From Bacteroidales bacterium (GTDB lineage: Bacteria > Bacteroidota > Bacteroidia > Bacteroidales > UBA932): a DNA stretch of 12,978 nt. The DNA is taken from assembly GCA_017551405.1 (NCBI GenBank), contig JAFZLP010000058.1, positions 1 through 12,978 on the forward strand, written 5' to 3'. Numbering within the stretch: position 1 is the first letter of the stretch; each line of letters starts with the position of its first letter. A program made the position numbers and the translations under genes. The notes under the pieces were generated by a model. That model searched no databases. It was not told where the DNA came from and was given only the letters and a program-made list of their open reading frames with translations. Below, in pieces: positions 1,683 to 12,978 of the stretch.

Positions 1683-4508
1683 ATGCCCGAAATGTCCAAG
1701 AAATTTGTCCCCAAATATTTTGGCGACAAGAACCCGAACCCCAAGCTCATCCGTCTGGTGCGCAAGATTACCGACCGCGTCCCCGGCAAAATCAAAATGA
1801 CTACCGAGGCCCCCGAGTACTGGGGCTATGCCTGCCTGTTCTACGACGAAATGGACGAAAAGACCAGGGAGGCCGCCCTCGACTTCCTCTGGGACCTCAT
1901 CTCCAAGAAGCCTTTCACGGTCCGCGAGCATCACGCCTACACAGAGCTTCTCGAGTGGAACCGGAAGAACCATTACGTCGAGAGCGACGAGGCTTTTGCC
2001 GAATTCATCGACAAACTTTCGTACCTCGGCCTCATCGAGTACGACTACGGCGACAAATACACCAAGGACGGCCCCGTTCCCGGCACCACGTACAACCGTG
2101 AAGACCGCATCTACTGGGTGCCTCTCTTCGTTCCAGGCAGCGCCGAGTACACCAACATGAACACCGAGCTCATGGACAGGCATCCCGAGCTCGCCATGTT
2201 CTTCGAGCGCATGACCTTCCTCCCGCTGGAGAAGATCACGCCCCTGGTTCCGATGGGCGGCAGCGGCATAGGCATGCACGTCATCCCGGTGGAAAAGGCC
2301 ATCAGCATGGAAAACCAGACCGTGGATATCGAGCATCTTTCCTACTGGCTCAAGCGCTATGAAGGCCATCTCGGCGTGGGCATCTGCTCGTGCCGCTACG
2401 GCCGCAAGAAGCTCGACGAGGGCTGCGCCGACGACTACCGCGACTGGTGCATAGGCGTGGGCGACATGGCCGACTACTGCCGCGAGACGGGCCGCGGCCA
2501 CGACATCACTTACGACGAGGCAATGGCCATCCTCAAAAAGGCCGAGGACCACGGTTTCGTCCATCAGATAACCAACATCGACGGCGAGGGCAAGATCTTC
2601 GCCATCTGCAACTGCAACGTCAAGATCTGCAACGCCCTCCGCACCAGCCAGCTCTTCAATACCCCCAACATGTCCCGCAGCGCCTACGTTGCCGAGGTAG
2701 ACCCGAAGAACTGCGTCGCCTGCGGCCGCTGCGTGGAGTACTGTCCCGCCGGCGCCGTCAAGCTCGGCCAGAAGCTCTGCACCAAGAGCGGCCCGCAGAC
2801 CTATCCCAAGCAGGAGCTGCCTGACGCCTCAAAGTGGGGTCCGCACAAGTGGAACGAAGACTACCGCGACCGCAACCGCATCAACTGCTATCCCACAGGC
2901 ACGGCGCCCTGCAAGACAGCCTGCCCCGCGCATATCGCCGTCCAGGGCTATCTGAAGAAGGCCGCCGAAGGCAAATACACCGAGGCACTGGAGCTTATCA
3001 AGAGGGAGAACCCCTTCCCGGCAGTCTGCGGGCGCGTCTGCAACCGCCGCTGCGAAGACGCCTGCACCCGCGGCACCATCGACCAGCCGATCGCAATCGA
3101 CGCGGTCAAGAAATTCATCGCGGAGCAGGACCTCAAGGCCGAAACCCGCTTCATCCCCGAAGTGAACATCTGCTCCAACGTGCAGGACCGTTGGGAAGAG
3201 AAAATCGCCATCATCGGCGGCGGCCCGGCAGGCCTGAGCTGCGCCTATTACCTGGCCACCATGGGTTACAAGCCCACGGTTTTCGAACGCAACGAGGAGC
3301 CCGGCGGAATGCTCCGCTACGGTATCCCTTCCTATAAACTGGACAAAGACGTCATCAAGGCCGAAATCGACATCATGCGCGAAATCGGCGTGGATATCCG
3401 CTGCGGCGTGGAGGTCGGCAAGGACGTTACCATCGCCGGCCTGCGCAAAGAGGGCTACAAGGGCTTCTACGTGGCCATCGGCTGCCAGGGCGGCCGTCTC
3501 CCCGGCATCCCCGGCGAGACCCTTACCGGCACCACCACCGCCATCGACTTCCTCCGGGAGGCCAACTGCGGCAAGGTGAAGCTGAACGGAAAGGTGGTGG
3601 TCGTCGGCGGCGGCAACGTCGCGATCGACGCGGCCCGCGTGGCCAGGCGCAGCGGTGCATCCGAAGTCACCATGCTCTCGCTCGAGACCGAGGACATCAT
3701 GCCCGCATCCCCCGAAGAGCGGCGCGAAGCCCGCGAGGACGGCGTGGTGCTCAATCCCGGCTGGGGCCCGAAGGAAGTTCTCGGCGACGGCAAGGTAAGC
3801 GGAATCGTGTTCAAGAAATGCACTTCCGTCTATAATTCCGAGCACAAGTTCGCCCCCGAATACGACGAAAACGAGCTCATCACGCTCGATGCCGACATGG
3901 TCATCTTCGCCATCGGCCAGACGGTCATGCTCAAAGACCTCCTCAAAGACACTAAAGTGGAGTTCTTCCGCGGCGTATATCCCGTCGCCGACAAGCTCAC
4001 CTACCAGACGGCGGAGCCCGACATCTTCGTGGGCGGCGATGTCTACACCGGGCCGAAGTTCGCCATCGACGCCATCGCGGCGGGCAAGGAGGCCGCCGAA
4101 AGCCTGCACCGCTTCGTGCAGCACGGCCACATGACCATAGGCCGCAACAGGCGCGATTTCATCGAACTCGACAAAAGCGACATACTGGTTGAATCCTACG
4201 ACAACTCTTCCCGCCACGAGGCGGAGGACGTGGCCGCAAAGGGCAAGTTCGAGGAGTATCACGGCACCCTCACCGAAGAACAGGTGCGGGCGGAGACCGC
4301 AAGGTGCCTGAGCTGCGGCGCATCCGTCGTGGACGAGAACCGCTGCATCGGCTGCGGAATCTGCACCACCAAGTGCGGCTTCGACGCCATCCACCTCTAC
4401 AGGGTGCATCCCGAGGCCAGCGTCATGCGCACTTCCGAAGACAAGTTCGACGGAATCCTGCCGTACATGATCAAACGCACCGGAAAGATACTGTTCAAAA
4501 AGAAATAA
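1683..4508 (+). CDS. Large iron-sulfur flavoprotein with GltD/NfnB-like FAD and NAD(P) domains
   Basis: The 941-residue protein is about twice the length of GltD. Residues 1-330 form a poorly known N-terminal part containing CSC (235-237), C248, C256, C266 and CNCNVKIC (309-316); the latter resembles the cysteine-rich stretch preceding ferredoxin motifs in some 4Fe-4S proteins. A ferredoxin motif follows (C344/C347/C350/C354). Next is the GltD-type iron-sulfur helical domain with C410, C414, C449, C453, C457 and C461. The FAD site is GGGPAG (512-517), the NAD(P) site GGGNVAIDAAR (642-652) followed by RR at 655-656, which would suit NADPH, and the FAD-closing motif is GGDVYTGP (784-791). The C-terminus adds C875/C878 and a further cluster C888/C891/C894/C898. 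It probably moves electrons between NAD(P)H and ferredoxin-like partners. It sits between hypB and hypA with 11 and 16 base gaps, so it is likely in the same operon. The true electron partner is unknown. An alternative start is M4 (1692). Confidence 0.85.
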   Translation: MPEMSKKFVPKYFGDKNPNPKLIRLVRKITDRVPGKIKMTTEAPEYWGYACLFYDEMDEKTREAALDFLWDLISKKPFTVREHHAYTELLEWNRKNHYVESDEAFAEFIDKLSYLGLIEYDYGDKYTKDGPVPGTTYNREDRIYWVPLFVPGSAEYTNMNTELMDRHPELAMFFERMTFLPLEKITPLVPMGGSGIGMHVIPVEKAISMENQTVDIEHLSYWLKRYEGHLGVGICSCRYGRKKLDEGCADDYRDWCIGVGDMADYCRETGRGHDITYDEAMAILKKAEDHGFVHQITNIDGEGKIFAICNCNVKICNALRTSQLFNTPNMSRSAYVAEVDPKNCVACGRCVEYCPAGAVKLGQKLCTKSGPQTYPKQELPDASKWGPHKWNEDYRDRNRINCYPTGTAPCKTACPAHIAVQGYLKKAAEGKYTEALELIKRENPFPAVCGRVCNRRCEDACTRGTIDQPIAIDAVKKFIAEQDLKAETRFIPEVNICSNVQDRWEEKIAIIGGGPAGLSCAYYLATMGYKPTVFERNEEPGGMLRYGIPSYKLDKDVIKAEIDIMREIGVDIRCGVEVGKDVTIAGLRKEGYKGFYVAIGCQGGRLPGIPGETLTGTTTAIDFLREANCGKVKLNGKVVVVGGGNVAIDAARVARRSGASEVTMLSLETEDIMPASPEERREAREDGVVLNPGWGPKEVLGDGKVSGIVFKKCTSVYNSEHKFAPEYDENELITLDADMVIFAIGQTVMLKDLLKDTKVEFFRGVYPVADKLTYQTAEPDIFVGGDVYTGPKFAIDAIAAGKEAAESLHRFVQHGHMTIGRNRRDFIELDKSDILVESYDNSSRHEAEDVAAKGKFEEYHGTLTEEQVRAETARCLSCGASVVDENRCIGCGICTTKCGFDAIHLYRVHPEASVMRTSEDKFDGILPYMIKRTGKILFKKK

Positions 4509-4524
4509 GACCCACGGTCAGGTC

Positions 4525-4872
4525 ATGCACGAACTCGGTATTGTGTTCTACATCATCCGCGACGTCAAGCAGACGGCGCAGGAGCACGGTGTGGAGCACG
4601 TCAGCGGCGTGGTCATGAACATCGGGGAGGTATCGACCATAGTCCCCGAATACCTGACCGACTGCTGGAAATGGGCCTGTTCGAAGGAAGAGATGCTCAA
4701 GGGATGCGAACTCAAGATCAACACCATCCCCGCCGTCACTTTCTGCGAAGACTGCAAGTCCGAATACGGCACTGTCGCCCACGGCAGGACCTGTCCCCGC
4801 TGCGGGAGCCAGCACACCTGGCTCCTGAGGGGGAACGAAGTGGAAATCAAAGAGATAGAAGTTCAAGAATAA
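4525..4872 (+). CDS. hypA: Nickel metallochaperone HypA
   Basis: This 115-residue protein matches the whole HypA family length. The N-terminus is Met-His-Glu, whose His2 (with the N-terminal amine and Glu3) forms the nickel site, so the start at 4525 is firm: any longer N-terminus would destroy that site. The zinc-finger domain is CEDC (C74, C77) and CPRC (C90, C93). HypA binds nickel, forms a complex with HypB and passes the metal to a target apoenzyme. It follows the flavoprotein by 16 bases. In most operons hypA is directly next to hypB; here a 2.8-kb flavoprotein gene separates them. No nickel enzyme is encoded in the window, so its client is elsewhere or is unknown. Confidence 0.95.
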   Translation: MHELGIVFYIIRDVKQTAQEHGVEHVSGVVMNIGEVSTIVPEYLTDCWKWACSKEEMLKGCELKINTIPAVTFCEDCKSEYGTVAHGRTCPRCGSQHTWLLRGNEVEIKEIEVQE

Positions 4873-5327: not shown

Positions 5328-5717
5328 ATGGATAAAATCAAGAATCTTGCGGATCTGCGCAAGATGAAGGAGGGTATGCAGTCGAAGATGTCGATGCGTG
5401 AAAACAGCAACTCCGACGAAGCTATCATCCAGATCAAGGTCGGAATGGCCACCAGCGGTATCGCCTCGGGAGCCAAGGAGACCATGAACTATCTCATTAC
5501 GGAACTTGACAAGCGCCAGATCAAGGCGCTGGTCATGCAGGTTGGCGATATGGGTTACAGCTATGCGGAACCCACCGTCGAGGTCACCATTCCCGGCAAG
5601 GATCCCGTCGTCTTCGGAGACGTCAAGATCCCGCGCGCCCAGGAAATCATCGAGAAGTACATAATCGGTGGTGAACTCATCGAGGGCATTCTGCCTGCAA
5701 ATTACAGAAGTATCTAA
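5328..5717 (+). CDS. hndB: HndB/HydD-like accessory subunit of NAD(P)-linked [FeFe] hydrogenase, cysteine-free
   Basis: This 129-residue protein has the length and motifs of the HndB-type subunit with a thioredoxin-like [2Fe-2S] ferredoxin fold: VGMATSGIASGAKET (38-52), VMQVGDMGYSYAEPTVEV (69-86) and EKYIIGGELIEG at the C-terminal side. It contains no cysteine at all. Aligned with the ferredoxin domain at the N-terminus of HydB (next gene), the ligand positions are occupied by S43, D74 and S78, so it cannot hold the usual [2Fe-2S] cluster. Acetobacterium woodii HydD is, as I recall, a comparable small hydrogenase subunit without predicted cofactors; whether they are orthologues needs alignment. 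It is the first gene of the hydrogenase operon, 24 bases before hydB. Likely a structural or docking subunit of the complex; the function is not established. Confidence 0.8.
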   Translation: MDKIKNLADLRKMKEGMQSKMSMRENSNSDEAIIQIKVGMATSGIASGAKETMNYLITELDKRQIKALVMQVGDMGYSYAEPTVEVTIPGKDPVVFGDVKIPRAQEIIEKYIIGGELIEGILPANYRSI

Positions 5718-5741: not shown

Positions 5742-7535
5742 ATGGCAGTAAAAATGCATATCCTGGTATGCGGTGGAACAGGTTGCTCCGCATCCCAAAG
5801 CCATGAGATCGTTGCTGAACTCAACAAGGAACTCGTGGCCCACGACCTGACCGATTTCGCCAAAGTGGTCGTCACCGGCTGCTTCGGATTCTGCGAAAAG
5901 GGTCCCATCGTGAAAATAATCCCCGACAACACCTTCTATACTAGGGTGAAGCCTTCCGACGCTAAGGAAATCATCGAGGAACACATCATCAAGGGCCGTA
6001 AGGTCCAGCGCCTCCTTTACGTGGCTCCGGACACCAACCAGAGCGTGTCCGACTCCAAGCACATGGAGTTCTACAAGAAGCAGCTCCGCATCGCGCTCCG
6101 CAACTGCGGTTTCATCGATCCCGAAAACATCGAGGAATCCATTGCCCGCGACGGCTATGCCGCTTTGGGTAAGTGCCTTACCGAGATGACTCCGGTACAG
6201 GTCATAGAAGAAATCAAGAAGTCCGGCCTCCGCGGCCGCGGCGGTGCCGGCTTCCCCACCGGCCTCAAATGGGAGATTGCATCCAAGAGCCGTCCCGGCG
6301 AGCAGAAGTATGTGGTCTGCAACGCCGACGAAGGTGACCCGGGCGCATTCATGGACCGTTCCCTCCTCGAGGGCGACCCCCACTCCATCCTTGAGGCAAT
6401 GGCCATCTGCGGCTACTGCATCGGCGCCAGCAAGGGTCTGATCTATATCCGTGCCGAGTATCCGCTCGCAATCCACCGCCTCCAGGTCGCCATCAAGCAG
6501 GCTGAGGAATACGGACTGCTGGGCAAGAACATATTCGGTACCGGCTTCGATTTTGATATCGAACTCCGCTATGGCGCAGGCGCATTCGTCTGCGGTGAGG
6601 AAACCGCCCTCATCCACTCCATGGAAGGCAAGCGCGGCGAACCCACCTTCAAACCGCCGTTCCCCGCCCAGTCCGGTTATCTCGAGAAGCCTACCAACGT
6701 GAACAACGTCGAGACCTTCGCCAATATCCCCGTCATCATCAACAAGGGCGCCGACTGGTTCGCCAGCATCGGCACCGAGAAGTCCAAGGGTACCAAGGTC
6801 TTCGCCCTCGCCGGCAAGATCAACAACGTCGGCCTCATCGAGGTCCCGATGGGCATCACCCTCAGGGAGATCATCTATGAGATCGGCGGCGGCATCAAGG
6901 GAGGCAAGAAATTCAAAGCCGTCCAGACCGGCGGTCCCTCCGGCGGCTGCCTCACCGAAAAGCACCTCGACACTCCCATCGACTACGACAGCCTCGTAGC
7001 TGCCGGTTCCATGATGGGCTCCGGCGGTATGATCGTCATGGACGAGGACGACTGCATGGTCGCCATCGCCAAGTTCTACCTCGGCTTCACCGTCGACGAG
7101 TCCTGCGGCAAGTGCACCCCGTGCCGTGTCGGCAACAGGCGCCTCCTCGAAATCCTCACCAGGATCACCGACGGCAAGGGCACCATGGCAGACCTCGACG
7201 AACTCAAGAACCTTTCCGCGGTCATCAAGGACACCGCTCTCTGCGGCCTCGGCCAGACTTCCCCGAACCCGGTTCTCTCCACCATCAACAACTTCTGGGA
7301 CGAATACGTGGAGCACGTCACCGAAAAGAAGTGCCGTGCCGGCCAGTGCAAGGCCCTGAAGAAATATGTCATCGATCCCGACAAGTGCAAGGGCTGTACG
7401 GCCTGCGCCAGGGCATGCCCTGCCGGAGCGATCAACGGCACCGTCAAGAACCCGCACGCCATCGATCAGGACAAGTGCATCAAGTGCGGCACCTGCATCG
7501 AGAAGTGTAAATTCGGAGCAATCAGCATTCAATAA
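5742..7535 (+). CDS. hydB: HydB, NuoF-like FMN/NAD(H)-binding subunit of [FeFe] hydrogenase
   Basis: This 597-residue cytoplasmic subunit exchanges electrons with NAD(H) and is the candidate bifurcating flavin subunit. Domains in order: thioredoxin-like [2Fe-2S] domain (C10, C15, C47, C51; about 1-95), NuoF core with the FMN/NADH glycine-rich motif GRGGAGFPTGLKW (165-177) and CNADEGDPGAF (193-203), an SLBB region (about 345-440), the NuoF [4Fe-4S] site (C455, C458, C461, C501), a C531/C536 pair in a linker, and two ferredoxin motifs at the C-terminus (C549/552/555/559 and C579/582/585/589). This order is that of HydB/HndC and differs from respiratory NuoF, which lacks both terminal ferredoxin-like parts. 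It lies between the HndB-like gene and hydA, 14 bases from the latter. Confurcation with ferredoxin versus simple NADH use cannot be decided from this sequence. Confidence 0.95.
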   Translation: MAVKMHILVCGGTGCSASQSHEIVAELNKELVAHDLTDFAKVVVTGCFGFCEKGPIVKIIPDNTFYTRVKPSDAKEIIEEHIIKGRKVQRLLYVAPDTNQSVSDSKHMEFYKKQLRIALRNCGFIDPENIEESIARDGYAALGKCLTEMTPVQVIEEIKKSGLRGRGGAGFPTGLKWEIASKSRPGEQKYVVCNADEGDPGAFMDRSLLEGDPHSILEAMAICGYCIGASKGLIYIRAEYPLAIHRLQVAIKQAEEYGLLGKNIFGTGFDFDIELRYGAGAFVCGEETALIHSMEGKRGEPTFKPPFPAQSGYLEKPTNVNNVETFANIPVIINKGADWFASIGTEKSKGTKVFALAGKINNVGLIEVPMGITLREIIYEIGGGIKGGKKFKAVQTGGPSGGCLTEKHLDTPIDYDSLVAAGSMMGSGGMIVMDEDDCMVAIAKFYLGFTVDESCGKCTPCRVGNRRLLEILTRITDGKGTMADLDELKNLSAVIKDTALCGLGQTSPNPVLSTINNFWDEYVEHVTEKKCRAGQCKALKKYVIDPDKCKGCTACARACPAGAINGTVKNPHAIDQDKCIKCGTCIEKCKFGAISIQ

Positions 7536-7541
7536 GGAAGG
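7536..7541 (+). promoter_or_regulatory. Strong Shine-Dalgarno site for hydA
   Basis: GGAAGG lies directly after the hydB stop codon and ends eight bases before the hydA ATG at 7550. It is the clearest Shine-Dalgarno-like site in the window; most other genes here have none. It should help set efficient translation of the catalytic subunit. Confidence 0.5.
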
Positions 7542-7549
7542 AACAAGTT

Positions 7550-9328
7550 ATGGACACTATAAAATTAACCATAGACAACAGAGTAGTGGAAGTGCCCCGC
7601 GGTACTACCATCCTGAAAGCAGCCGAGCAGATCGGCATCAAGATCCCTACCCTCTGTAATTTCGAACTCGACGGCCTCGCCCTCAAGAATCATCCCGGCG
7701 GATGCCGCGTGTGCGTGGTGGAGGTTGTAGGACGCAGGAACCTTGCTCCTGCCTGTATCACCGAGTGTATGCCCGACATGGTCGTCAAGACCAATTCGTT
7801 CCGCGCGCTCAACGCCCGCAGGACCGTCGTCGAGCTCATGCTCAGCGACCATCCCAACGACTGTCTCCAGTGCGCCAAGAGCGGACAGTGCGAACTGCAG
7901 GCCCTGGCATCCCACCTGGGCATCCGCGAGATTCCCTTCAAGGGCGCCCAGTCGGAATATGCCAAGGAGACTTCGTCCCCGTCCATCGTGCGCGATGCCA
8001 ACAAGTGCATCATGTGCCGCCGCTGCGAATCCGTATGCCATGAGTACCAGAGCGTAGGTGCCATCGGCGCGGTCGAGAGGGGCTTCCCCGCAGTGGTCGC
8101 CACCGCATTCGGCAAGGGCCTCATCGACACCAACTGCGTGATGTGCGGCCAGTGCGTCGCAGTCTGCCCGACCGGAGCCCTCACCGAGGTCGACAACACC
8201 GGCAGGATTCTCCGCGACATCGCCAATCCCGACGTCAAGACCTGCGTCCAGGTTGCTCCCGCAGTCCGCGTGGCCCTCGGCGAAGAGTTCGGCATGCCTG
8301 CCGGCAGCATCGTTACCGGCAAGATCGCAGCCGCCCTCAAGGCCATCGGCTTCGATTACGTATTCGACACCGACTGGTCGGCCGACCTCACCATCATGGA
8401 GGAAGGCACCGAGGTCATCGGCCGCCTCAAGGCATTCCTCGCCGGCGACAAGAACGTCAAGATTCCTATCATGACTTCCTGCTGCCCGGCATGGGTCAAC
8501 TTCTACGAGAAGTTCTATCCCGAGCTCCGCGAATATCCCTCCACGGCGAAATCCCCGCAGGGCATGTTCGGCGCCACCGTCAAGACATACTTCGCCGACA
8601 AGATCGGCGTTCCGCGCGAGAAGCTGATTTCCGTCTCCGTGATGCCCTGCGTCGCCAAGAAATATGAGTGCGAACGTGAGGAACTCGGCGCGAACGGCGA
8701 TCCCGACGTGAACTATTCCATCACCACCCGCGAGCTCGCCCGCCTCATCAAGATCTGCAACATCGACTTCAACAGTCTCCCCGACGCTGAGTTCGACTCC
8801 CCGCTCGGAGCTTCCACCGGTGCTGCTGTCATCTTCGGTGCCACCGGCGGCGTTATGGAGGCAGCCCTCCGTACGGCCGTTGAAATCCTGACCGGCAAGA
8901 CCCTCCCGAGGATCGACTTCGAAGAGGTCCGCGGTCTGGACGGCATCCGCGAGGCTACGATTCCGGTTCCCGGCGTCGCCGACCTCAAGGTCGCGATCGT
9001 CTACGGCCTTAAGAACGCCCGCGTGATCATGGAACAGATCAAGGCCGGCAACTGCCCCTACCACTTCGTGGAAGTAATGGCCTGCCCCGGCGGCTGTATC
9101 GACGGCGCAGGACAGCCTTACCATCACGGCGACGCGTCCATCGTCAAGGCACGTCACGCCGCCATCTACGAGGCTGACAGGCAGATGCCCATCCGCAAGT
9201 CCCACGAGAATCCCGAGATCATCTCGATCTACAAGGAGTTCTACGGCGAGCCTTGCTCCGAGAAGTCGCACCACCTGCTTCACACGCATTACTTTGACAA
9301 GAAAATCAAGTTTGACATCGAAAAATAA
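7550..9328 (+). CDS. hydA: HydA, catalytic [FeFe] hydrogenase subunit (group A, NADH-linked type)
   Basis: This 592-residue subunit carries the H-cluster and makes or oxidises H2. N-terminal NuoG-like part: [2Fe-2S] ligands C36, C52, C55, C69; a His/Cys [4Fe-4S] site H101, C105, C108, C114; then two ferredoxin clusters C153/156/159/163 and C196/199/202/206. The H-cluster domain has all three signatures: TSCCPAW (309-315; C311 is the expected proton-relay cysteine, C312 a cluster ligand), MPCVAKKYE (365-373; C367), and ACPGGCIDGAGQP (511-523; C512, C516). The C-terminus holds the small-subunit-type segment with SHENP (551-555) and LLHTHY (576-581), which in the large fused forms closes over the active site. 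All catalytic residues I can check are present, so it should be active if matured by HydE, HydF and HydG, none of which is in this window. It lies between hydB and hydC, the latter eight bases away. Confidence 0.97.
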   Translation: MDTIKLTIDNRVVEVPRGTTILKAAEQIGIKIPTLCNFELDGLALKNHPGGCRVCVVEVVGRRNLAPACITECMPDMVVKTNSFRALNARRTVVELMLSDHPNDCLQCAKSGQCELQALASHLGIREIPFKGAQSEYAKETSSPSIVRDANKCIMCRRCESVCHEYQSVGAIGAVERGFPAVVATAFGKGLIDTNCVMCGQCVAVCPTGALTEVDNTGRILRDIANPDVKTCVQVAPAVRVALGEEFGMPAGSIVTGKIAAALKAIGFDYVFDTDWSADLTIMEEGTEVIGRLKAFLAGDKNVKIPIMTSCCPAWVNFYEKFYPELREYPSTAKSPQGMFGATVKTYFADKIGVPREKLISVSVMPCVAKKYECEREELGANGDPDVNYSITTRELARLIKICNIDFNSLPDAEFDSPLGASTGAAVIFGATGGVMEAALRTAVEILTGKTLPRIDFEEVRGLDGIREATIPVPGVADLKVAIVYGLKNARVIMEQIKAGNCPYHFVEVMACPGGCIDGAGQPYHHGDASIVKARHAAIYEADRQMPIRKSHENPEIISIYKEFYGEPCSEKSHHLLHTHYFDKKIKFDIEK

Positions 9329-9336
9329 TCTCAGCC

Positions 9337-9822
9337 ATGTGTGGACCCAAAGTACATATTTCTGAAGCCAATTACCTTAAAATCAAGGAAATCTGCGCTT
9401 CCTTCGACAACAACCCCGGAGAACTGATCAACGTTCTCCACAAGACGCAGGGCCACTTCGGCTATCTTCCCGAAGAAGTCCAGCAGGTTGTGGCTGACTG
9501 CCTTGGCATTCCCGTGGGCAGGGTTTACGGTGTCGTTTCCTTCTACAGCTTCTTCACCATGAAGCCGAAGGGCAAATACGCGATCTCCGTATGTCTTGGT
9601 ACGGCGTGCTATGTCAAGGGTGCCGAGAAGGTGCTTGACGCTCTCAAGAGCGAGCTCAAGATCTCCGAAGGCGAAGTTACCCCCGACGGCAAATTCTCGC
9701 TGGACGTCCTCCGCTGCGTGGGCGCCTGCGGTCTTGCTCCGGTGATGACCATCAACGGCAAGACCTACGGACGTCTCGCTCCCGAGAGCGTCAAGAAGAT
9801 CCTTGCCGAGTACGCAGATTAA
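9337..9822 (+). CDS. hydC: HydC, NuoE-like [2Fe-2S] subunit of [FeFe] hydrogenase
   Basis: This 161-residue protein has the usual NuoE/HydC length: a helical N-terminal half (about 1-75, with LHKTQGHFGYLPEEV) and a thioredoxin-like half binding one [2Fe-2S] cluster through C86, C91 (CLGTAC) and C127, C131 (CVGAC). It pairs with the NuoF-like HydB to complete the NADH-side electron entry of the hydrogenase. The gene starts eight bases after hydA and is the last structural gene before a GC-rich hairpin. In many related operons hydC comes first; here it is last. Nothing suggests loss of function. Confidence 0.95.
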   Translation: MCGPKVHISEANYLKIKEICASFDNNPGELINVLHKTQGHFGYLPEEVQQVVADCLGIPVGRVYGVVSFYSFFTMKPKGKYAISVCLGTACYVKGAEKVLDALKSELKISEGEVTPDGKFSLDVLRCVGACGLAPVMTINGKTYGRLAPESVKKILAEYAD

Positions 9823-10237: not shown

Positions 10238-10651
10238 ATGCATTACACCTTCAACATCGAACGCGGCAATTTCACCGACGCCGGCCAGGCATCCAGCAGC
10301 GTCAAGCGCACGCTCAAGCAGCTGGGAGTGAATCCCGCCGACATAAAGCGCACCGTGGTGGCTTTGTTCGAGGCGGAGATAAATGCCGTCGCGCACGCCT
10401 ATGGCGGCACAATCGACGTGGACATCGACGGGCAGAAGATAGTGATGGTGGTCGCCGACCAGGGCCCCGGCATTCCCGACCTCGATCTGGCCATGCAGGA
10501 GGGCTGGTCCACCGCCTCACCCCAGGTGAGGGAGATGGGTTACGGCGCCGGCATGGGCCTCCCGAACATCAAGAAGAATACGGACGAGCTCAAGATCGAC
10601 ACAAAGGTCGGCGTAGGCACCACCGTTACCATGACAGTTTACCTTGCATGA
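10238..10651 (+). CDS. RsbW-like HATPase, probable anti-sigma/serine kinase-type regulator
   Basis: This 137-residue protein is a single GHKL ATPase domain of the anti-sigma-factor kinase type (RsbW/SpoIIAB/RsbT-like). N-box: FEAEINAVAHAY (residues 44-55; E and N are the expected metal and ATP residues). G1 box: VADQGPGIPD. G2 box: GYGAGMGLPNI, followed by GVGTTVTM. I chose the ATG at 10238 because residues upstream in the same frame come from the preceding gene's coding region and lack family similarity; this start leaves two bases after the previous stop. It has no dimerisation/phosphoacceptor domain of a classic histidine kinase. In known systems such proteins bind a sigma factor or phosphorylate a STAS partner; no sigma factor, STAS or PP2C gene is visible here, so its target is unknown. 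It lies directly before the sensory hydrogenase-like gene. Confidence 0.88.
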   Translation: MHYTFNIERGNFTDAGQASSSVKRTLKQLGVNPADIKRTVVALFEAEINAVAHAYGGTIDVDIDGQKIVMVVADQGPGIPDLDLAMQEGWSTASPQVREMGYGAGMGLPNIKKNTDELKIDTKVGVGTTVTMTVYLA

Positions 10652-10655
10652 CTTT

Positions 10656-12005
10656 ATGGCCCAGGAAATCTATTTCAGACATTCTCTCAGGGTAAACGAC
10701 TACCTGTGCAAGGGCTGCACCACCTGTATGCGCACCTGCCCGACGGCAGCCATCCGCATCCGTGACGGCAAGGCTGTCATCAGCGACAACAAGTGCGTGG
10801 ATTGCGGCGAGTGCATCAAGGCCTGTCCCCACAAGGCCATATACATCAAGCAGGACGACTTCGGCCGCCTGTTCAATTACCGGTACAGGGTATGCCTGGT
10901 GCCCACCACCTTCATCGGGCAGTTCGAGGAAAAGTACAAGACCAGGGCTATCTATTCCTGCATCAAGAAGCTGGGATTCACCCACATCTACGAGGTGGAG
11001 CATGAGATGGACCGCATGGTCGAGCTCTACAACCGCTACATGGACGAGCATCCCGAGATCACTACCTTCATCTCCCCCTACTGTCCTGCGGTAACCCGGC
11101 TCATCCAGGTGCGTTTCCCCTCCCTGGTAGACAACGTCATCCACGTGAGGGCGCCGCTTGAACTCGCGTCCCGCGTCATTACCAAGCGCCTGATGGATGA
11201 AGGCGCCAGCCGCGACTCCATAGGCGTCTTCTACGTTACGCCCTGCGCGGCCAAGATTGCCGCGGTGAAATACCCCGTGAGCGGCAAGGAAACCTACGTT
11301 TCCGGCGTGATCAACATGGACTTCCTTTACAACAAGGTGCTCCTCATGCTTCACGACTCCGACAAAAACGCCCAGCCCATCAACCACGCCCTCACTTCGC
11401 GCGACGTGCTGTGGCCTCTCACCGGTGGCGAAGCCTCCCGTTTCAAGGGCTCGCAATTTGCCGTGGACGGCCTCACCAACGTGCTGCAGTTCCTGGAAAA
11501 GCTGGAAGACGAGGCCGTGGACGCCCCGGGTCTGGTGGAGATGCGCATCTGCGACCAGGGCTGCGTGGGCGGTGTCCTCACCACCAACAACCGTTTCGTG
11601 GCCAGGAAGCGCCTGGAATACAGGGCGAGGCTGTTCGAGCGTCTTGAACGCAGCAACATGCGCGAGACTGCAACGGATGACGAACCCCTCACCGACGAGA
11701 TGGTTGACGTCATGACCATTCCCGAAATCAAGCCGCGTTCCATACTCAAACTCAACGATGATTTTCACGAGGCATTCAAGATGGCCGAGCGCATGAAAAC
11801 CATCGAGAAGGCCCTTCCGGGCGTGAACTGCTCGGCGTGCGGGGCGCCTTCCTGCGCGGCCCTGGCCGAGGACATAGTGCGCGGAGATGCCCGCATCAGC
11901 ACCTGCATCTTCATCAACCGCAACACCAAGGCCTCCGAAGACGCCATTCACAGCATCTGGGGAGACCGCATCAAAACCAAGGAAACAAATAAAGACGACA
12001 AGTGA
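10656..12005 (+). CDS. Divergent [FeFe]-hydrogenase-like protein, probable H2/redox sensor
   Basis: This 449-residue protein begins with two ferredoxin clusters (C18/21/24/28 and C47/50/53/57), followed by an H-cluster-like domain. The four cysteines expected to bind the H-cluster cubane are kept: C143 in SPYCPA, C197 in TPCAAK, and C299 and C303 in RICDQGC. The cysteine before C143, the proton relay in catalytic enzymes, is Y142, and the ACPGGC/GGGQP signature is altered. The C-terminus adds a Fes-type [4Fe-4S] motif, LPGVNCSACGAPSC with C392, C395, C400 and C417. Such changes are known from group C/D putative sensory hydrogenases, so I call it a sensor, not the main catalyst. No PAS or kinase domain is present; the adjacent RsbW-like gene may supply the output. 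A TTG at 10644 would extend it by four residues and overlap the previous gene; the ATG at 10656 is preferred. Confidence 0.85.
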   Translation: MAQEIYFRHSLRVNDYLCKGCTTCMRTCPTAAIRIRDGKAVISDNKCVDCGECIKACPHKAIYIKQDDFGRLFNYRYRVCLVPTTFIGQFEEKYKTRAIYSCIKKLGFTHIYEVEHEMDRMVELYNRYMDEHPEITTFISPYCPAVTRLIQVRFPSLVDNVIHVRAPLELASRVITKRLMDEGASRDSIGVFYVTPCAAKIAAVKYPVSGKETYVSGVINMDFLYNKVLLMLHDSDKNAQPINHALTSRDVLWPLTGGEASRFKGSQFAVDGLTNVLQFLEKLEDEAVDAPGLVEMRICDQGCVGGVLTTNNRFVARKRLEYRARLFERLERSNMRETATDDEPLTDEMVDVMTIPEIKPRSILKLNDDFHEAFKMAERMKTIEKALPGVNCSACGAPSCAALAEDIVRGDARISTCIFINRNTKASEDAIHSIWGDRIKTKETNKDDK

Positions 12006-12337: not shown

Positions 12338-12978
12338 ATGCAGTTCAAGGCCGATATGCACATCCACTCGGTGCTCTCCCCCTGCGGAGACCTTGAGATG
12401 AGCCCCTCAGCCATCGTCGCGAAGGCGAAGGAGAAGGGCTTGGACATAATCGGCATTACCGACCACAATTCCACCCTGAACGCCGAAGTCACCCGGCGTC
12501 TCGGGGAAAAGGCGGGGCTTTGCGTCCTGATGGGGGCGGAGGTTACCACCAAAGAGGAGGTCCATTGCCTGAGTTTCATGCCCAATGCAGAGAAACTCGC
12601 TGAATTCCAGGCGTTTCTGGACTCCAAGGTCATATTTTTTGAGAACGATGTCGACAAGTTCGGCTATCAGCTGGTGGTGGACGAAGAGGAGAATGTGCTC
12701 GACCAGGTTCCGCATCTGCTCATCAACGCCCTCGACCTTCCGATGCTGGAACTCCAGCAGAAAGTCTACGAGATGGGCGGCATCTTCATCCCGGCCCACG
12801 TAGATCGCCCCACTTTCAGCATCAGTTCGCAGCTGGGCTTCATCCCCTCGGGGCTCAAGTTCCACGCCCTCGAACTCAGCTATTACTGCAAAAGGGACGG
12901 TTACAAGTTCCTCGAGAACTGCCCCTGGTTCAGCGACTTCAATTTCATCCAGAGCAGCGACGCCCATTTTGTCGACGA
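12338..12978 (+). CDS. PHP-domain phosphoesterase-like protein (3' end missing)
   Basis: The gene starts at ATG 12338, one base after the preceding stop, and runs open to the window end, giving 213 complete codons. Seen: DMHIHSVLSPCGD (residues 6-18), the first PHP metal motif HxH; ITDHN (46-50); GAEVTTKEEVH, with the expected Glu and His; PAHVDR; and SSDAH near the visible end, the conserved DxH motif. These metal-binding residues suggest a working PHP fold, the class of histidinol phosphatase-like hydrolases. The LSPCGD form of motif I is, as I recall, typical of PHP proteins found next to hydrogenase genes. The substrate is unknown; a phosphatase or nucleotide hydrolase serving the neighbouring kinase module is a reasonable guess. 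It is cut only by the window edge and shows no sign of decay. Confidence 0.88.
   Translation, partial: MQFKADMHIHSVLSPCGDLEMSPSAIVAKAKEKGLDIIGITDHNSTLNAEVTRRLGEKAGLCVLMGAEVTTKEEVHCLSFMPNAEKLAEFQAFLDSKVIFFENDVDKFGYQLVVDEEENVLDQVPHLLINALDLPMLELQQKVYEMGGIFIPAHVDRPTFSISSQLGFIPSGLKFHALELSYYCKRDGYKFLENCPWFSDFNFIQSSDAHFVD

Follow-up and report, generated by a model that had tools for sequence, protein, structure and literature searches.

A group D [FeFe]-hydrogenase-like putative sensor of Bacteroidales with an aromatic/arginine pocket beside conserved DRTGG and HATPase genes

HydS, encoded in a 12,978-nucleotide stretch of DNA from a Bacteroidales bacterium (contig JAFZLP010000058.1; the window), is by its sequence a member of group D (M2e) of the [FeFe] hydrogenases; its architecture is already published and its pocket is unusual. 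The novelty is this pocket, shared by the main Bacteroidales clade to which HydS belongs: Tyr or Phe at the site of the relay cysteine (C299 in CpI) and Arg or Lys at the site of CpI M497. As judged by the residues at homologous positions, the relay of group A is gone in this clade and the proton path of group D is intact.

The HydS protein

The coordinates of HydS, its motifs and the flanking genes are collected in Table 1. All the residues that an earlier note on this DNA had named (Y142, C143, C197, C299, D300, Q301, C303 and C392/C395/C400/C417) are found in the translation, and the catalytic HydA that it had placed 1.3 kb upstream is there too, carrying TSCCPAW and CPGGC and ending 1.3 kb before HydS; its list did not include two more changes in the pocket, where the CpI M353 site is T195 and the CpI M497 site is R297. 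Pfam finds Fe_hyd_lg_C (2e-19), the FeS domain PF04060 (3.8e-12) and Fer4 domains in HydS, with no PAS domain at E <= 0.001 and neither a C-terminal PAS nor any other fused signalling domain, the group C trait; the C-terminal Fe-S site and the absence of PAS are thus as the note had them. A fold search with a model of HydS returns the FeFe hydrogenase fold over the whole chain, the solved FeFe hydrogenases among the best 47 matches listed being 16-21% identical to it. The cubane cysteines C143, C197, C299 and C303 are present in 183/183, 182/182, 181/181 and 181/181 of the main-clade rows that cover them. The invariance of key residues in relatives rules out that HydS is a chance ORF, a damaged gene or a pseudogene.

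Table 1. Coordinates of HydS, its sites and its neighbouring genes in the window
Feature	Position	Strand	Basis or remark
HydB, HydA (catalytic, A6), HydC, bifurcating-type hydrogenase	5742..9822	+	HydA, HydC by family; HydB from translation
DRTGG protein 1, 114 aa	9891..10235	+	PF07085 21.2 bits, below cut-off 25.2; conserved neighbour
HATPase_c_2 protein, RsbW/SpoIIAB-like	10238..10651	+	PF13581 4.5e-15; TIGR01925 58.3 bits, below cut-off 135
HydS, group D [FeFe]-hydrogenase-like putative sensor	10656..12005	+	ATG-started ORF, 449 aa
Two N-terminal [4Fe-4S] motifs, C18/C21/C24/C28 and C47/C50/C53/C57	10707..10826	+	Pfam, residues
Y142 (CpI C299 site) and cubane ligand C143	11079..11084	+	alignment
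T195 (CpI M353 site) and cubane ligand C197	11238..11246	+	alignment
T256 and E259 (TamHydS S249 and E252 counterparts, group D proton path)	11421..11432	+	alignment to clostridial relatives, residue spacing
D271 (TamHydS D265 counterpart)	11466..11468	+	alignment to clostridial relatives, residue spacing
E295 (TamHydS E289), R297 (CpI M497 site), C299-D300-Q301-G302-C303	11538..11564	+	alignment
C-terminal Cx2Cx4Cx16C site, C392/C395/C400/C417	11829..11906	+	PF04060
DRTGG protein 2, 109 aa	12007..12336	+	PF02603 27.9 bits (cut-off 24); PF07085 19.9 bits, below cut-off
PHP-domain phosphoesterase, runs off window	12338..12976	+	PF02811 4.7e-9

Placement in group D

In a tree of 86 rows, HydS lies inside a clade of 56 group D rows with support 100/100, and all other rows fall outside it: 13 carry the label A, 9 the label C and 3 the label B, and 5 are MCP-fused proteins, two of which were domain-scanned; the labels C and B are presumptive, from scores and architecture. 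HydS groups with 18 clostridial group D rows at 100/100, and the 38 Bacteroidota group D rows form one clade at 99/99. When 12 pocket columns are removed (73 chosen rows), the group D clade with HydS stays at 100/100, the main Bacteroidales clade stands at 100/100, the clostridial rows at 98/99 and a third clade at 100/99. Both trees are built from homologue rows, the characterised TamHydS, TmHydS and CpI being absent from them, and the clostridial rows were gathered with a bait that carries Ala at the CpI C299 site; identity between HydS and 24 of the clostridial group D proteins is 31-39%. Of 25 rows first labelled group A, two (L169 and the first L176 row) turned out to be group C-like and do not enter the group A count, which comprises 24 rows, 23 of them homologues and the last the HydA of the window; label A needs two changes on the 86-row tree because the C-like L176 row stayed labelled 'A' there.

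The reading of HydS as sensor-type and outside catalytic group A is therefore upheld by tree and motifs alike, HydS grouping with group D at 100/100. A catalytic group A identity is ruled out by the tree and by the lack of the counterparts of CpI C299, M353 and M497 and of CPGGC; a group C identity is ruled out by the lack of PAS or fused output and by a position outside the C-labelled rows. The proposal that the architecture defines a distinct sensor subtype does not survive, nor does any claim to a new domain architecture: group D/M2e is published as having two N-terminal [4Fe-4S] clusters, an H-domain, Cx2Cx4Cx16C, a replaced relay cysteine and no PAS (PMC8163306), and the combination seen in HydS is the one described there and in PMC10407848.

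Some of the other rows carry fused output domains. Among the rows that were domain-scanned, L214 is a HisKA-HATPase fusion, and L212 and L217 show no output domain. In L093 and L097, both from Bacteroidota, the H-domain is fused to a methyl-accepting chemotaxis signalling domain; such proteins are of a known kind, because HydDB already lists a chemotactic class C2, which they match, beside the histidine-kinase-linked C1 and the phosphatase-linked C3 (PMC5037454).

The proton path and the pocket

For TamHydS, a proton path E252-E289-S249-D265 has been proposed from models and conservation, and is described as supported by mutation of E252 and E289 (PMC10407848). Mapped onto HydS through an alignment with clostridial relatives and the spacing of the residues, without the TamHydS sequence itself, E252 corresponds to E259, E289 to E295, S249 to T256 and D265 to D271. 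The main clade has 184 distinct rows; of those that cover the position in question, E259 is found in 183/183, D271 in 183/183 and E295 in 181/181; position 256 is T in 145 and S in 19 of 183 (T/S 164/183). Five group D rows (L089, L090, L091, L209, L210) had been set aside before the 183-row counts for their motifs and for forming a clade of their own (100/99); as G462 and G537, the source genomes of L209 and L210, belong to the same order as the window, the invariance holds for the main clade and not for every group D protein there. The earlier note had HydS lose its proton relay while keeping its cysteines. This stands for the group A relay, which is gone with Y142, but not for the group D path, whose counterparts are all present.

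The pocket itself is just as constant. The CpI C299 site is aromatic in 183/183 main-clade rows (F 129, Y 54), so Y142 is no peculiarity of this locus but one of two residues fixed throughout the clade; the CpI M497 site is R in 178 and K in 3 of 181, the CpI M353 site is T or S in 181/182, a hydroxyl residue being a published M2e trait at this site (PMC8163306), and the first residue after the Cys of the CxxxC loop is D in 169/181. Clostridial rows show Ala at the CpI C299 site in 120/120 and Asn/Leu/Asp in 115/3/2 at the CpI M497 site, these being the best 120 for the Ala-carrying bait. Group D is described as 'mostly' alanine at the CpI C299 site (PMC10407848), a tendency and no criterion, which HydS with Y142 does not follow. 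Published 'sensory' sequences carry 17% Cys, about 43% Ala, about 10% Pro, about 10% Ser 'etc.' there (PMC10055695), and aromatic members may already sit among them. No description of the aromatic/Arg pocket was found among the papers listed by the literature searches, as judged by title and start of abstract.

In CpI, the bridgehead amine of the diiron subsite has the side chains of C299 and M497 close by (PMC11803613). By homologous positions, Y142, R297 and E259 should be neighbours, and on the geometry of CpI an aromatic ring and an Arg beside the kept Glu should therefore alter the protonation and redox behaviour of the diiron subsite.

The neighbouring genes

HydS sits in the gene order DRTGG-HATPase-HydS-DRTGG-PHP, downstream of the bifurcating-type hydrogenase genes, whose HydA (7550-9328) matches the NCBIfam group A6 model NF040763 at 851 bits (cut-off 765). 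Counting the 149 distinct loci with 3.5 kb on either side of HydS, a few of which belong to the other clade, 148 have an HATPase and at least one DRTGG gene on the same strand within 4.5 kb, L152 being the single locus without the HATPase, and 123 have the HATPase, two DRTGG genes and PHP. The PHP protein keeps HxH and DHN in 158/160 relatives, the remaining 2 being gapped.

In the HATPase protein (scanned from 10241, one codon short), E44, E46, N48, D73, G75, G77 and the GxGAGxGL glycines are found in 191/191 relatives, P76 in 188/191 and M105 in 190/191; these residues we take to be those of the N, G1 and G2 boxes. The score lies below the curated cut-offs for the SpoIIAB/RsbW anti-sigma kinase family (TIGR01925 and RsbW models), and with the key motif residues intact the protein may work like a SpoIIAB/RsbW kinase. 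DRTGG and HATPase are fused in one protein in L210 and L229, the DRTGG part scoring 24.2 and 23.2 bits, just under the cut-off of 25.2. A like fusion is apparent, by length only, in L209 and L232; the fused proteins of all four loci have 265-287 aa.

Before the FeFe hydrogenase genes lie genes named by eye from the translation as HypB-like (967-1671) and HypA-like (4525-4872) nickel chaperones. HypA and HypB homologues occur near HydS in 3/157 and 2/157 loci, and a search of the window's own genome (90% complete) gave no [NiFe] large subunit. Between the two, a 941-aa protein (1683-4508) looks by eye like a fusion of Fe-S and pyridine-nucleotide oxidoreductase. A small protein before HydB (5328-5717) resembles, again by eye, thioredoxin-like [2Fe-2S] ferredoxins; it is without cysteines, which homologues in other hydrogenase loci carry, and 23/106 homologous ORFs are likewise without.

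Distribution, HydA and maturases

HydS is present at >= 311 bits in 110/393 genomes of the order, with three more at 190-200 bits. An A6 HydA match at E <= 1e-150 is found in 108/110 HydS-bearing genomes versus 131/283 others, and 131/239 HydA-bearing genomes are without HydS; HydF is found in at least 97/110 HydS-bearing genomes and at least 137/283 others. These order-wide HydA and HydF counts are lower bounds, only 3 or 4 first-look candidates having been scored per genome, and the 13/110 HydS-bearing genomes in which HydF was not found are to be read with the same limited scoring. The window's own genome carries HydF (449 bits, cut-off 326). HydS was not found in G402 and G757, two genomes of the same genus (4 candidates scored each); G402 has HydF and A6 HydA, so HydA does without HydS there as far as detected.

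Two near-complete genomes, G347 (a main-clade genome with HydA) and G180, have an extra PF02906 hydrogenase besides HydS, and neither HydF nor HydG was found in them with all candidates scored; possibly they use another maturation route or a diverged maturase set.

A related clade without the path

HydS-like proteins that fall outside the main clade came up in a survey of the phylum. One of these, used as the query of a protein search, gave 5327 relatives, the best 120 of which were examined; six of the 120 are named by taxon, four as Ignavibacteria(e) and two as Bacteroidota. All 120 have Gln at 259, Ala, Gly or Ser at 271 and a hydrophobic residue at 256; position 142 is Phe in 119 and Tyr in 1, and 297 is His in 113. 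E295, C143, C299, C303 and the four C-terminal cysteines are found in 120/120 and C197 in 119/120. In the class of G172, 15 of 192 genomes have a related-clade HydS at >= 325 bits; these 15 loci together with L209 and L210 have E at 259 in 0/17, D at 271 in 0/17 and Ser/Thr at 256 in 3/17. It is this Ignavibacteria/Bacteroidota clade, and not the HydS of the window, that 'cysteines kept, relay lost' fits. With the pocket columns removed, the branch that unites this clade with the Bacteroidales one has support 87/61, and the tree requires two changes; the related clade may have lost the proton path, which the common aromatic residue fits, or may never have had it.

For 13 of the 15 class loci the sequence reaches far enough to show the gene order up to the catalytic genes; L224 and L227 stop short of them. 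Eleven of the 13 read, on one strand, HydS ... HATPase2-HydC-TRX-HydB-HdrA/NuoG-like-FlpD-[NiFe] small-[NiFe] large. In ten of these 11, HydS is preceded by DRTGG-HATPase and followed by DRTGG-PHP; in L222 none of the four genes was seen. The remaining two, L229 and L232, have HydC-HydB followed by a protein of 844-865 aa, which in L229 has molybdopterin oxidoreductase domains by Pfam, in L210 has a counterpart with weaker matches to these domains and in L232 is assigned by homology; the HydS-like proteins of both L229 and L232 have His in place of the third cubane cysteine. The 587-aa protein of G172 looks like HdrA2 with a NuoG-type N-terminus attached, and the [NiFe] large subunit there looks like VhuA, both below curated cut-offs. 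More widely, L089, L091 and L221-L235 carry a group D-like HydS without the path Glu and Asp; where the operon can be followed far enough, it mostly continues into [NiFe] Vhu/Mvh-like hydrogenase genes accompanied by HdrA/NuoG-like and FlpD genes and a second HATPase. No description of an [NiFe]-linked HydS was found among the papers listed by the literature searches, judged by title and start of abstract; an [NiFe]-HydABCSL operon of A. mobile is described with the extra genes HydD, HydP and HisK (PMC8880783).

HydF and HydG were not found in G172, G180 and G337 (98-99% complete; E <= 1e-30, all first-look candidates scored). The phylum survey shows no other PF02906 protein in G172 and G337, and one of 646 aa in G180. 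None of the 15 HydS-bearing genomes of the class is among the 25/192 with HydF, a lower bound with 9 candidates scored in each. The missing maturases hint at an absent diiron site, without proving it. That no maturase is found is no proof of a missing H-cluster, because G347 and G180 have an FeFe hydrogenase yet neither HydF nor HydG, and because the HydF control is weak: 9/20 listed genomes with a PF02906 match > 280 bits (G031, G051, G124, G156, G180, G184, G216, G263 and G267) are also without a HydF match. G462 and G537, the genomes of L209 and L210, do carry HydF, HydG and A6 HydA elsewhere.

What HydS might sense

HydS of the window is probably a low-turnover, H-cluster-bearing sensor of H2 or redox state with slow proton exchange, reporting to the DRTGG/HATPase pair; group D sensing itself is putative. 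The sensor reading is supported by sequence, fold, phylogeny, the full set of cubane ligands, the path counterparts, HydF in the genome and the conserved module with a kinase-like ATPase. An H-cluster would be installed in HydS, and H2 or a reduced partner would set its redox or protonation state; Y/F142 and R297 near E259 would retune or slow proton exchange, such that one reduced state persists as the signal; the persisting state would change the contact of HydS with its DRTGG/HATPase partner, which would in turn, through phosphorylation or partner switching, govern the neighbouring HydBAC enzyme or the genes for it.

The gene orders of the related clade suggest that the constant partner of the module is the HydB/HydC diaphorase rather than an H2-active site; the module may go with the NuoE/NuoF-type diaphorase and be able to do without H-cluster chemistry. 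The strongest rival, because of this constant partner, is that HydS is mainly a ferredoxin/NADH redox sensor on HydB/HydC, the H-domain being a scaffold and H2 binding incidental. It draws on the module accompanying HydC/HydB where an [NiFe] enzyme (11/13 loci with enough flank) or a molybdopterin protein replaces FeFe HydA, and on HydF and HydG not being found in G172, G180 and G337; for the HydS of the window it is nonetheless unlikely, as the invariance of E259 and D271 in its clade would be hard to explain with an idle diiron site. A broader reading, which we put forward tentatively, gives both clades a share: DRTGG-HATPase-HydS might be a general regulator of NuoE/NuoF-type (electron-bifurcating) diaphorases, using an H-cluster and the group D proton path with FeFe-HydABC, and [2Fe]-free with [NiFe] Mvh/HdrA-like or molybdopterin complexes of Ignavibacteria and other Bacteroidota, where it would read redox via its Fe-S clusters. 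The [2Fe]-free part draws on the absent path Glu and Asp, from HydF and HydG not being found in three genomes and from the Cys-to-His change at the cubane in two loci.

That the aromatic residue and Arg exclude the [2Fe] subsite even in Bacteroidales, leaving the cubane alone, is improbable: bulky residues do stand in place of Cys and Met beside the diiron site, and exchange of M497 for Leu in a prototypical enzyme is described as leaving it without a properly integrated [2Fe] cluster (PMC10055695), but TmHydS and TamHydS, which carry other residues at these sites, incorporate [2Fe] all the same by their published descriptions (PMC8163306; PMC10055695), E259 and D271 are invariant in the main clade, and the window's own genome has HydF. 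We give very little weight to HydS being a slow catalytic hydrogenase with a metabolic role and no sensor, for although TamHydS is described as turning over slowly in both directions (PMC8163306) and the path counterparts are present, the module is of signalling type, 108/110 genomes also have an A6 HydA, and at three sites that matter for fast turnover in group A, HydS has Tyr, Thr and Arg instead.

Comparison with known systems

The HATPase_c_2 neighbour is like the RsbW/SpoIIAB modules in its intact N, G1 and G2 box residues, and differs in falling below the TIGR01925 and RsbW cut-offs and in having no sigma factor or STAS protein among the named genes of the window. The authors of work on HydS have called finding its interaction partner critical (PMC13104023); the conserved DRTGG/HATPase neighbours, together with the natural DRTGG-HATPase fusions, provide a concrete candidate for a signalling partner.

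The A6 HydA of the same operon shares with HydS the H-domain and the four cubane cysteines, but has the counterparts of CpI C299, M353 and M497 and CPGGC. TmHydS (Thermotoga maritima, group C) is, by its published descriptions, like HydS in its sensor-type replacement of CpI C299, M353 and M497 and in its C-terminal cluster, and unlike it in having PAS and in that the E252/D265 path is described as unconserved in group C (PMC10407848). In the related clade, the joint absence of counterparts of E252 and D265, and mostly of S249, would put the proposed group D path to a natural test; with its genes beside those of [NiFe] or Mo enzymes, this clade also lets one ask whether sensing depends on proton-coupled turnover, or on an H-cluster in the first place.

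The closest system is TamHydS (Thermoanaerobacter mathranii, group D/M2e). By its published description it is like HydS in domain order, absence of PAS, C-terminal Cx2Cx4Cx16C, a hydroxyl at the M353 site and the path residues, and its gene too adjoins those of a bifurcating HydABC and an HATPase (PMC8163306). Compared in the same way, HydS differs in having Tyr versus Ala at the CpI C299 site and Arg versus Leu at the M497 site (PMC11803613), and in its CDQGC loop; the Bacteroidales pocket thus presents natural variants at positions that have been engineered in TamHydS (PMC11803613).
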